A DNA stretch of 64,000 bases from Kaistia hirudinis. Lineage in GTDB: Bacteria > Pseudomonadota > Alphaproteobacteria > Rhizobiales > Kaistiaceae. Shown here one piece after another: positions 11,941-14,969 of the stretch (position 1 is its first letter; every line of letters begins with the position of its first letter). The position numbers and the translations under genes are program-made. Location of the stretch: NCBI RefSeq assembly GCF_014196455.1, contig NZ_JACIDS010000001.1, positions 682,001 through 746,000 on the forward strand. The letters run 5' to 3'. Under the pieces are notes generated by a model. That model ran no database searches and was not told the DNA's origin. It saw only the letters and a list, made by a program, of their open reading frames with translations.

Positions 11941-12390
11941 TCAGATACCGAATTTCTTGCGGAGCTCGACCATTGCGAGCGCGGCCTCGGCGGCGGCTCC
12001 GCCCTTGTTCTTCTCGGCGACGCGAGCGCGCGCATAGGCCTGCGCGTCGTTCTCGACGGTGAGGATGCCATTGCCGACGGCGAGCGATTCGATCACGGCC
12101 ATGTCCATGATCGCGCGGGCCGATTCGTTCGCGACGGTGTCGTAATGCGTGGTCTCGCCGCGGATGACGCAGCCGAGCACGACGAAGCCGTCATAATCCG
12201 CCTCGCCGTCTTCCATAGCCGCCAGCGCCATCGACATGGCAGCCGGAATTTCGAGCACGCCGGGAACCGAGACGCGATCGAACGTCGCTCCGGCCTTCTC
12301 CAGCGCGAGGCGCGCGCCGAGGAAAAGCTCGTCGGAGATATCCTCGTAGAATCGTGCGTCGATAACGAGAAGATGGGGAGCGTCGGTCAT
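11941..12390 (-). CDS. ribH: 6,7-dimethyl-8-ribityllumazine synthase
   Basis: RibH condenses 5-amino-6-ribitylaminouracil with 3,4-dihydroxy-2-butanone 4-phosphate, the penultimate riboflavin step. The 149-residue length is normal. Visible signatures are the N-terminal aromatic [35 protein letters not shown] with the catalytic His region, and [11 protein letters not shown]. The start ATG at 12390 overlaps the stop of a 41-codon reading frame as ATGA, which may couple translation. It precedes nusB. Confidence 0.96.
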
Positions 12391-12512
12391 TTCGGGGGCT
12401 CTTCTATCGGTACTGCGCGGTGTCCGAACGGGCGGCAGGTGAACCACGCGCATCCCCCGCTGTAAAGGAAAAAGAGCGTCACGCCCTGCATGCCTGCCGC
12501 GCACAGCAACAT
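12387..12512 (-). CDS. Possible 41-residue leader or microprotein before ribH
   Basis: In the otherwise empty 204-bp gap between ribE and ribH there is an ATG at 12512 with a GGAG-like element just upstream and a 41-codon frame ending in a TGA that overlaps the ribH start as ATGA. The peptide has a hydrophobic middle ([11 protein letters not shown]), three Cys in its first 26 residues and a proline/acid tail. The coupling geometry argues for translation; nothing identifies a function. It could equally be chance coding in a leader. Confidence 0.3.
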
Positions 12513-12594
12513 GGCTCCGATCGCGCATGGCGCGCCGGCCTGCCCAAGCGGGGCCGGCAGCGGCGGAAATGTCGCGATGGCGCGGCGCGCCCGC

Positions 12595-13206
12595 TCAGGC
12601 CGCCTCGGTCAGCCGCGCGACATAGCGGGCCATCTGATCGACCTCGAGATGCACGCGGTCGCCGGCCTGGCGGCTGCCCCAGGTCGTGACGTCGGCGGTC
12701 AGCGTGTGCGGGATCAGGAGGACCGAGAAGCGGTCGCCCTCGACCCAGTTCACCGTCAGCGAGGTGCCGTCGAGCGCGACCGAGCCTTTGGTGGCGATGA
12801 ATTTCGCCAGCCGATGCGGCGCCTCGAAGACGAAGCGCGTCGTCTCGCCGAGATCCTCGCGCGAGACGATCGTCGCGACGCCATCGACGTGACCTGAAAC
12901 CATGTGACCGCCGAGCTCATCACCGAGCTTCAGCGAGCGCTCGAGATTGATGCGCGTCCCGGGCTCCCACTTGCCGACTTCGGTCAGGTCGAGCGTCTCG
13001 GGCGCCGCCTCGACATCGAACAGAACGCGGCCATCCGCCTGCGGGGCGAGCGAGATCACGGTGAGGCATACGCCGGCGCAGGCGATCGACGCGCCGATGG
13101 CGATCGTCGCGGCGTCATAGGCGCTGTCGATGGTGATGCGGTTCACGTCATTGCGCCGCTCCACGGCGGTCACGCGGCCGACATCGGTGATGATTCCAGT
13201 GAACAT
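12595..13206 (-). CDS. ribE: Riboflavin synthase, alpha subunit
   Basis: The enzyme dismutates two 6,7-dimethyl-8-ribityllumazine molecules to riboflavin. The 203-residue product has two tandem lumazine-binding barrels: the first begins MFTGIITDVG and contains IACAGVCLTV; the second begins ELGGHMVSGHVDG and contains VALDGTSLTVNWV. Length is normal. It starts four bases after the ribD stop, so the pair is translated from one transcript. Confidence 0.95.
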   Translation of the reverse strand: MFTGIITDVGRVTAVERRNDVNRITIDSAYDAATIAIGASIACAGVCLTVISLAPQADGRVLFDVEAAPETLDLTEVGKWEPGTRINLERSLKLGDELGGHMVSGHVDGVATIVSREDLGETTRFVFEAPHRLAKFIATKGSVALDGTSLTVNWVEGDRFSVLLIPHTLTADVTTWGSRQAGDRVHLEVDQMARYVARLTEAA

Positions 13207-13209
13207 TGC

Positions 13210-14349
13210 TCAGCTCTTTCTCTCGAAGCGAACCATCCGGTCCTCGCCGAGAAGCGCCTCGTCGGCGATCTCGTAGCGGGGATTGCGATCGATCATGGAG
13301 AGCGCCGCGCCGGCGAGCGCGCGCACCCCGTCCGGCCCGACCACGACCGGCGCGCGATAGAGCACGACGGCGTCGGCGAACCCCTGTGTCACCAGCGAGG
13401 CGGCCACCCGGGCGCCGCCCTCCACGAGAAGATTGTTGATGCCGCGCTCGGCCAGGAAGCGCAGCACGGCGCCGAGGTCGAGCCCGCCGCTGCCGGTGCC
13501 GATCCTGTGAACGCTCGCGCCGGCCGCTTCGAGGACCGCGCAGCGGGCTGCGTCCGCCCCCTCCCCGACCATGACCCAGAGCGGCGCCTCGCGCGCCGTG
13601 GCGACGAGCGCGCTCGCCTCCGGCAACTGCGCCTGGCGGTCGAGCACGACACGGACCGGCGAGAGATGGGATAGGCCGGGAATGCGCACCATGAGGCGCG
13701 GATCATTGGCGAGCGCCGTGCCGATGCCGATCAGCGAGGCATCCGCCTCGATGCGCAGGCGCTGGAGATGATCGAAGGCTTCAGGGCCCGAGACCAGCAT
13801 GCGCTCGCCGCTCCGCCGGCCGATCATGCCATCGGCCGAGACGGCGAGCTTCAGCGTGACATGGGGTCGCCCGACGGCGACGCGCATCAGATAGCCGGCA
13901 TGGACGCGCCGCGCCTCCTCGCCGAGCACGCCGGCCGTCACCTCGATGCCGGCCTCGCGAAGGCGCGCGAAGGTAGCCCGCGTATGACCAGGCCGGGGAT
14001 CCTCGAGCGCCGCAACCAGGCGGCGTATGCCGCTCGCGACGATGGCGTCGGAATCGGAAGTTCCGTCGGCGTGGCGGATCGGCGGTTCGAGGCTCGCATA
14101 GAGCGTGGCCCCCCGCGCGGCCTCGCCCGCCATGGCGAGCGCGGCCTGCACGGCATGCTCGGCTCCGCCGGGGCCGGTGGTGCCGCGGCCGACAATGATC
14201 GGCGCCTGCCCCTGCCAGCGGACGACGAGCGCGCCCACGGCGGGCGCCGGACGGCTGCGCCCGAGCGCGCGACGGCCGAAGCGGATGGCCGCGGCCATCA
14301 GCCTCCGATCGAGTTCGGGATCCGCAGCCTGCCGCTGGTCCAGCGCCAT
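13210..14349 (-). CDS. ribD: RibD-type protein with intact reductase and degenerate deaminase domain
   Basis: Bifunctional RibD deaminates and then reduces the pyrimidine intermediate of riboflavin synthesis. The 379-residue length and two-domain order are normal. The C-terminal reductase (about 155-375) looks intact: VTLKLAVSADGMIG, ALANDPRLMVR and NNLLVEGGARVAASL. In the N-terminal deaminase the HAE zinc/catalytic motif reads HAV, and the two zinc Cys of the LEPC...PPC motif are replaced by Pro and Asp (LEPPIRHADGTSDSD), so this half should be inactive. AGGAG lies six bases before the ATG at 14349. It sits between nrdR and ribE. It may act only as the reductase. Confidence 0.9.
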   Translation of the reverse strand: MALDQRQAADPELDRRLMAAAIRFGRRALGRSRPAPAVGALVVRWQGQAPIIVGRGTTGPGGAEHAVQAALAMAGEAARGATLYASLEPPIRHADGTSDSDAIVASGIRRLVAALEDPRPGHTRATFARLREAGIEVTAGVLGEEARRVHAGYLMRVAVGRPHVTLKLAVSADGMIGRRSGERMLVSGPEAFDHLQRLRIEADASLIGIGTALANDPRLMVRIPGLSHLSPVRVVLDRQAQLPEASALVATAREAPLWVMVGEGADAARCAVLEAAGASVHRIGTGSGGLDLGAVLRFLAERGINNLLVEGGARVAASLVTQGFADAVVLYRAPVVVGPDGVRALAGAALSMIDRNPRYEIADEALLGEDRMVRFERKS

Positions 14350-14495: not shown

Positions 14496-14969
14496 CTAAA
14501 CCTTGCCGGCCAGCTGTTCCTGGCCCGAGAGCTCGTCCAACACCGCCGAGAAATCCTTGGCCTCGCGGAAATTGCGATAGACCGAGGCGAAGCGGACATA
14601 GGCGACGTCGTCGAGGCCCTTCAGCCCCTCCATAACGAGCACGCCGATCTGCTCCGACGGGATCTCGTTCTCGCCGAGGCTCTCGAGCTGGCGCACCACG
14701 CCATTGACCATGCGCTCGACGCGCTCGGGATCGACCGGCCGCTTGCGCAGCGCGACCTGGACCGAGCGCATCAGCTTGTCGCGATCGAAGGGAACGCGCC
14801 GCCCGCTCTTCTTCAGCACGATGATCTCGCGCAGCTGGATGCGTTCGAAGGTCGTGAAACGGCCACCGCAATCCGCGCAGACGCGACGGCGCCGGATGGA
14901 CGTGTTGTCCTCCGACGGCCGCGAGTCCTTCACCTGCGTGTCATCGCTTCCGCAATAGGGGCAGCGCAT
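14496..14969 (-). CDS. nrdR: Transcriptional repressor NrdR
   Basis: NrdR represses ribonucleotide reductase genes in response to nucleotide state. The 157-residue protein begins with a zinc ribbon ([17 protein letters not shown], then [17 protein letters not shown]) and continues with the ATP-cone ([20 protein letters not shown]). Length is typical. It starts 10 bp after the glyA stop and precedes ribD, the usual order in this group. Confidence 0.97.

Follow-up and report, generated by a model that had tools for sequence, protein, structure and literature searches.

Loss of the RibD deaminase active site across the genus Kaistia within a retained riboflavin operon

Comparison of the RibD protein of Kaistia hirudinis with its homologues points to a real and clean loss of a core enzymatic activity, at the level of the genus, from a riboflavin operon that is otherwise preserved. 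The gene lies in the window, i.e. the whole 64,000-nucleotide stretch of DNA that was analysed. Both zinc Cys, the substrate Asn and the zinc-loop His of the deaminase half are absent from RibD in all 14 Kaistia genomes. Either another enzyme fills the deamination gap, or Kaistia no longer relies on the usual riboflavin synthesis. The explanation preferred here, tentatively and at slightly less than even chances, is that the deaminase activity was lost in an ancestor, that this half has been kept as a folded pseudo-enzyme and that the pathway runs via another deaminase. The open-access literature searched yielded no paper describing a bacterial RibD with a dead deaminase, and none dealing with riboflavin in Kaistia.

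Active-site loss and retention of the deaminase fold

The comparison covered 14 genomes of the window's genus (including K. dalseonensis, K. soli, K. terrae, K. defluvii, K. granuli and K. adipata), 14 other genomes of the family from 8 further genera, and 71 non-Kaistia RibDs among 80 Rhizobiales loci fetched; the family and wider Rhizobiales sets overlap in some genomes and are not independent. The features of the locus are given in Table 1. The genes ribE and then ribH1 follow ribD downstream on the same strand, and ribD still adjoins both at the loci read. The real start of ribH1 is probably near 12390, and the upstream regulator is presumably of nrdR type, a name given from recall of the sequence.

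Table 1. Coordinates of the ribD locus and of the RibD residues discussed, in positions of the window
Feature	Position	Strand	Basis
ribD, RibD-type protein, 379 aa, predicted dead deaminase half and reductase half	13210..14349	-	ORF and translation, ATG at 14349
RibD deaminase half, residues 14-148, active site predicted lost, fold predicted kept	13906..14310	-	AlphaFold2, PDB match
RibD A35, at the substrate-binding Asn of relatives (E. coli N24)	14245..14247	-	alignment
RibD V67, codon GTG, at the catalytic Glu of relatives (E. coli E52)	14149..14151	-	sequence, alignment
RibD P90, at the first zinc Cys of relatives (E. coli C75)	14080..14082	-	alignment
RibD D99, at the second zinc Cys of relatives (E. 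coli C84)	14053..14055	-	alignment
RibD reductase half, residues 160-375	13225..13872	-	invariant positions kept
RibD K167, kept (E. coli Lys152)	13849..13851	-	K in all sequences compared
RibD N215, at the reductase Asp position (E. coli Asp200)	13705..13707	-	alignment
ribE, riboflavin synthase, intact	12595..13206	-	NF006767, 222.5 bits, cut-off 155
ribH1, lumazine synthase ORF	11941..12528	-	TIGR00114, 95.1 bits, cut-off 84.6
nrdR-type regulator gene (presumed), upstream of ribD	14496..14969	-	ORF

The RibD of Acinetobacter baumannii is described with the motif PCXHXG(R/K)TPPC, a His and two Cys as zinc ligands, and an Asn and a Glu (PMC3668577). The initial annotation, made from the window alone, had placed a lost deaminase site at 13901-14349, which is indeed the deaminase half of ribD, and had read HAV for HAE and the loss of both zinc Cys. 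These readings are borne out: H65-A66-V67 stands in place of HAE, V67 being encoded by GTG at 14151-14149, and P90 and D99 replace the two Cys, so that the His is the zinc ligand kept in the window protein. The substrate Asn (35), R63 and H92, which had escaped that annotation, are also gone in all 14 Kaistia.

Each Kaistia genome contains exactly one RibD match, and in none of the 14 does it carry either Cys. Residue 35 is Ala throughout the genus, and Asn in 14/14 other family genomes and 71/71 other Rhizobiales RibDs. The catalytic Glu persists in seven Kaistia and the zinc His of HAE in ten. The Glu position reads E in 7, T in 3, V in 2, S in 1 and I in 1 of the 14 genomes; the Glu-to-Val change proposed earlier as a single-base change is therefore not a private event of that kind. 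The deaminase residues are intact in all 14 other family genomes and in all 71 non-Kaistia Rhizobiales RibDs, and the nearest relative of Kaistia, Prosthecomicrobium pneumaticum, likewise has an intact RibD. The 14 relatives share 55 invariant positions in the deaminase half. Every Kaistia genome retains 25 of them, and just five, namely N35, R63, C90, H92 and C99, are missing throughout the genus; four of these are active-site or zinc-loop residues, and R63 shares the loop with HAE. The former zinc loop (14053-14082, residues 90-99) shows a new common pattern, with Gly96 and Ser98 in 13/14 Kaistia and Asp95 in 10/14.

The RibDs of the rest of the genus are 57-76% identical to the window protein, and a tree of the reductase half alone recovers Kaistia as monophyletic (support 100/99). 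The restricted distribution, in all Kaistia and none of the relatives, together with this monophyly, is most simply explained by a single loss in the common ancestor of Kaistia, in which the zinc site and the substrate Asn disappeared in one episode. Two genomes deposited as Bosea sp. (G011) and Mesorhizobium sp. BR1-1-16 (G012) group with Kaistia, also by RibD, and their deposited names look wrong. An artefact of sequencing, assembly or contamination has practically no probability left, since 14 genomes agree on the loss of both Cys and nothing was found in its favour; for the genus it is refuted. The rejection of sequencing error in the initial annotation is thereby upheld, and the intact close homologues within the genus that would have spoken for such an error do not occur in these genomes.

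The deaminase half has evolved faster in Kaistia than elsewhere, as evident from the mean pairwise identities of 0.652 for the deaminase half vs 0.753 for the reductase half in the genus, as compared to 0.699 vs 0.640 in the relatives. It is the more divergent half in 85 of 91 Kaistia pairs vs 9 of 91 relative pairs, with a median dN ratio (deaminase to reductase half) of 1.47 in Kaistia vs 0.82 in the others. The deaminase dN/dS of the ten pairs closest by reductase dS is 0.07-0.25 in nine and 0.45 in one distant pair, and the median is 0.32 in one Kaistia group and 0.23 in the other. All dN/dS values were estimated by the Nei-Gojobori method, and many of the pairs approach saturation. On these rates the half is under continuing purifying selection rather than in free decay. 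An AlphaFold2 model built from 38 sequences has a pLDDT of 89-98 per ten-residue block over residues 11-160, and its best PDB fold match is B. subtilis RibG (2b3z, TM 0.82, E 3.8e-36); the deaminase fold is thus predicted to be retained despite the loss of the active site. Model and rates together indicate that the half persists as a folded pseudo-enzyme fused to the reductase, probably kept for reductase stability or partner contacts.

The retained fold and the selection on the domain would also agree with an altered domain that still deaminates, zinc-free or with different ligands. This is highly improbable, because both Cys and the Asn are lost in 14/14, the His and the Glu of HAE each vary within the genus, and no other residue set of such kind is fixed across the genus. 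The whole window protein nevertheless scores 205.7 bits against TIGR00326 (bifunctional RibD), above the cut-off of 156.35, and annotation pipelines would therefore name it bifunctional RibD, although deaminase activity is impossible by any known mechanism.

Reductase half and order of reactions

Zinc-ligand mutations in RibD are reported to leave the reductase activity unaffected (PMC3668577). The reductase half has 59 positions that do not vary among the 14 other family genomes, and 46 of these are retained throughout the 14 Kaistia; K167, E310 (E. coli 299 in the alignment) and G312 are likewise kept in 14/14. The initial annotation had called this half normal, which does not hold in detail, because the Asp200 position is N215 in the window. 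Across Kaistia this position reads D in 7, N in 5, A in 1 and H in 1 of the genomes, and it is D in 14/14 other family genomes and 71/71 other Rhizobiales RibDs. In yeast RIB7 the equivalents of Asp200 and of the Glu are both needed for activity (PMC3631187). The seven Kaistia with Asp200, K. adipata among them, form one clade (100/99), and the tree gives no order for the other seven. The branch leading to G000 and G002 is long in the reductase tree (0.32), and these two genomes carry extra reductase changes. The median reductase dN/dS is 0.10 in the seven-species Asp200 group and 0.27 in the other seven. The changed Asp200 in 7/14 together with the long branch to G000 and G002 fits with decay or with a change of function.

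A change of function would mean that RibD, altered in both of its catalytic centres, has been repurposed in Kaistia as a scaffold or to act on a different substrate. Such a reading would account for the loss of both Cys and the Asn in 14/14 and of Asp200 in 7/14 while both halves remain under purifying selection, and for the new zinc-loop pattern with Gly96 and Ser98 in 13/14. It is nonetheless considered quite unlikely, since Asp200, the Lys and Glu310 are all kept in seven species and the gene still stands beside ribE and ribH1 at the loci read. Furthermore, RibD is the sole PF01872 protein in G004 and G008 and must therefore be their reductase if riboflavin is made. Spare RibD-type reductases were also sought among 20 further PF01872 stretches, of which 19 belong to the seven species lacking Asp200. 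Most of the 20 look DHFR-like by eye, and none is common to all seven species.

The order of the two reactions may be judged from K167. The Lys152-type residue is described as the bacterial determinant for the deaminated substrate, being Thr in fungi and Asn in archaea (PMC3631187). Neither Asn nor Thr of the archaeal or fungal type was found at this position, which is Lys in 14/14 Kaistia. A swapped order, with the reductase acting first on DAROPP and a Rib2-like deaminase second, is known from archaea and fungi (PMC8256712) and might be reflected in Ser187, which replaces Thr (E. coli T172) in 14/14 Kaistia vs 2/14 family genomes and 2/71 other RibDs. However, the retained Lys gives no support to the fungal order, and the swap is regarded as very unlikely. 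Retention of the Lys for the deaminated substrate suggests instead that deamination probably still precedes reduction, and the missing deaminase would then act before the reductase.

Remaining pathway and riboflavin uptake

The flanking rib genes, called normal in the initial annotation, look intact as far as RibE and RibH1 are concerned: of the 63 invariant RibE positions, 59 are unchanged throughout the 14 Kaistia, and RibH1 keeps 44 of 45 in the nine Kaistia open to comparison. The RibB part of the RibBA-type proteins looks complete by eye. In 26/26 family proteins aligned (L129-L154, own genome L141), Kaistia and others alike, the zinc Cys are missing from the GTP cyclohydrolase II half of RibBA, so that in most of the family no enzyme can be recognised for the first step of the pathway. 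A further GTP-cyclohydrolase-II-like protein, ∼430 aa long and with the zinc Cys, was found in 13/14 Kaistia and otherwise only in Prosthecomicrobium (G027). In the own genome it is located at C4:765407-765841 (L156; others L155, L157, L158); it is possibly of the uracil-catabolism type and possibly relevant to the missing first step.

Riboflavin formation in Sinorhizobium and Brucella requires BrbF, a formamidase of the creatininase family; the cyclohydrolase that would go with it is described as still to be discovered (PMC9478397). A BrbF-like protein is present in all 14 Kaistia and forms one clade (100/99) that groups with the rhizobial BrbF trio, with moderate support (90/80, 91/90) and long branches flagged. 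The Kaistia brbF-like cluster, with its ABC transporters and amidohydrolases, looks catabolic, which, like the moderate support for orthology to rhizobial BrbF, weighs against the preferred explanation. This cluster (L200, 8368-12112, and equivalents) contains one or two 8-oxoguanine-deaminase-type genes, a RidA-type gene and two ABC transporters, and in some species also a cytosine-deaminase-like gene.

Retention of RibE, RibH1 and the BrbF-like protein is the main reason to think that riboflavin is still made, and suggests from gene content that the Kaistia pathway still runs. With the RibB part of RibBA retained as well, the pathway most likely operates, in which case DAROPP deamination must fall to another enzyme, which would not be a second RibD.

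The main rival to this explanation, and a third option beyond the two readings of the initial annotation, is riboflavin uptake. An FMN riboswitch (RF00050; 111.6 bits in the own genome, gathering score 66.2) stands upstream of an EamA-type, RibN-like transporter in 13/14 Kaistia vs 1/14 other family genomes, which could allow the loss of synthesis; the transporter is 70-100% identical among Kaistia. In these 13 Kaistia the riboswitch and transporter (L125 in the own genome, C6 about 193142-194295; also L115-L128) adjoin an ATP-dependent DNA ligase-like gene. If Kaistia, having gained or kept this transporter, lived largely on imported riboflavin, the constraint on RibD would be relaxed, the deaminase would have been lost first and the reductase would now be failing in part of the genus, as the changed Asp200 in 7/14 and the extra reductase changes in G000 and G002 may indicate; the other rib genes would persist because the loss is recent or through side roles.

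Several observations make this reading unlikely, though it carries appreciable weight. G002, listed as 100% complete and the closest relative of the window's genome by RibD, lacks both the riboswitch and the RibN-like transporter but has kept ribD, ribE and the BrbF-like gene. The invariant positions kept in RibE and RibH1, the median reductase dN/dS of the two groups of seven and the deep divergence of RibD within the genus also argue against it. Moreover, RibN-type uptake commonly coexists with riboflavin synthesis. If Kaistia nevertheless makes no riboflavin, the genus would offer a staged picture of biosynthetic enzyme loss in which fold and operon persist.

Candidate deaminases and comparison with known systems

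As between the two readings of the initial annotation, another deaminase is favoured by the retention of RibE, RibH1 and the BrbF-like protein although none has been pinpointed, and a new use of RibD gains some weight from the Asp200 position. The search suggested there, for a second RibD or a cytidine-deaminase-like gene, returned no second RibD in any of the 14 Kaistia genomes. The own genome holds four other PF00383 proteins, namely a TadA-like protein, Cdd and two short nucleoside-deaminase-like (GuaD-like) proteins. In K. soli (listed as 100% complete) the PF00383 matches besides RibD are TadA-like and Cdd only (E ≤ 0.001), and therefore the genus as a whole shares no spare protein with this fold apart from those two.

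Individual candidates of the fold were set aside on these and similar grounds. The GuaD-like pair of the own genome does not extend to all Kaistia, since K. soli has no such match. The 14 Kaistia Cdd proteins show by eye no Kaistia-specific motif change against 8 relatives, and promiscuity is still possible for them. Weak PF00383 matches of 330 aa occur in G001, G007, G008, G010 and G013, and by eye those of G001, G008 and G013 look like cytidine deaminases with two domains. Relatives with an intact RibD also have the cytosine-deaminase-like gene close to brbF.

Outside this fold, two amidohydrolases beside the Kaistia brbF, here termed A and B, score 593.8 and 613.2 bits against NF006055 (cut-off 532). 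Enzymes of the 8-oxoguanine/isocytosine deaminase family deaminate isocytosine at C2, acting on free bases (PMC6186785). Copy A is present in 13/14 Kaistia, 82-100% identical to the copy of the window's genome, and forms its own clade (100/100) on a long stem of 0.34, in a tree that held one duplicated row (the B copy of G008). In 9/14 other family genomes one amidohydrolase of the A/B type is found, outside the A clade. It is conceivable, though decidedly doubtful, that the non-homologous paralog A removes the C2 amino group of DAROPP, the RibD active site having been lost after A arose, on the same branch. No A copy was found at E ≤ 1e-90 in K. terrae, where RibD is just as dead, and the count of fixed differences in A is ordinary, with 13 as compared to 10 in the control (Kaistia B vs outgroup), counted without the duplicated row; for these two reasons A stays a guess. 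The window's A copy has APNAPF, and B, the outgroup and the one other A copy shown have APCAPF; together with the absence in K. terrae and the fixed differences, this led to the rejection of A as a proven substitute. The case of K. terrae is the opposite of that of G002, in that it has the transporter and lacks A; if A deaminates DAROPP, K. terrae would need uptake, for which it has the RibN-like transporter, or a further enzyme. The A copy (C6, L265) of G008, a fragmented MAG with 6% contamination, falls among different species than the RibD of that genome, which suggests that the bin is mixed.

Should Kaistia make riboflavin, an unrecognised deaminase must be present for a step regarded as settled in bacteria. 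Since the family also has no GTP cyclohydrolase II that can be recognised, Kaistia would be a compact genus in which genetics could uncover missing riboflavin enzymes.

The Kaistia protein resembles E. coli RibD and B. subtilis RibG in its two-domain architecture, its fold and its operon with ribE and ribH, and it retains the Lys, Thr211 and Glu310 positions of the bacterial reductase. It differs from them in the absence of PCxHxG(R/K)TPPC, of the Asn and, in half of the species, of the Glu, and the Asp200 of the window protein is Asn. The BrbF-dependent Rhizobiales are similar to Kaistia in having a creatininase-family protein of this kind, found in 14/14 Kaistia, and a RibBA without the cyclohydrolase Cys (26/26). 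However, RibD is not reported as altered in those bacteria in the papers considered here, and Kaistia adds a second missing step; brbF of S. meliloti adjoins cobW, whereas that of Kaistia lies in a larger cluster. Copies A and B resemble the 8-oxoguanine/isocytosine deaminases of NF006055 by score, and C2 deamination of isocytosine is the chemistry that DAROPP needs (PMC6186785). The known substrates of that family are free bases, unlike DAROPP, a ribotide, and a riboflavin role of A is a guess.

The closest precedent for a half-dead RibD is plant PyrR, for which a partner deaminase is known. PyrR is described as a full-length RibD homologue whose deaminase half is kept but catalytically empty (PMC9678776), and the window RibD is likewise a deaminase-like half without catalytic residues fused to a reductase. 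Plants possess a separate PyrD deaminase, whereas none was found in Kaistia, where 14/14 genomes have one RibD, and the reductase Asp is changed in 7/14 Kaistia, unlike in plant PyrR.
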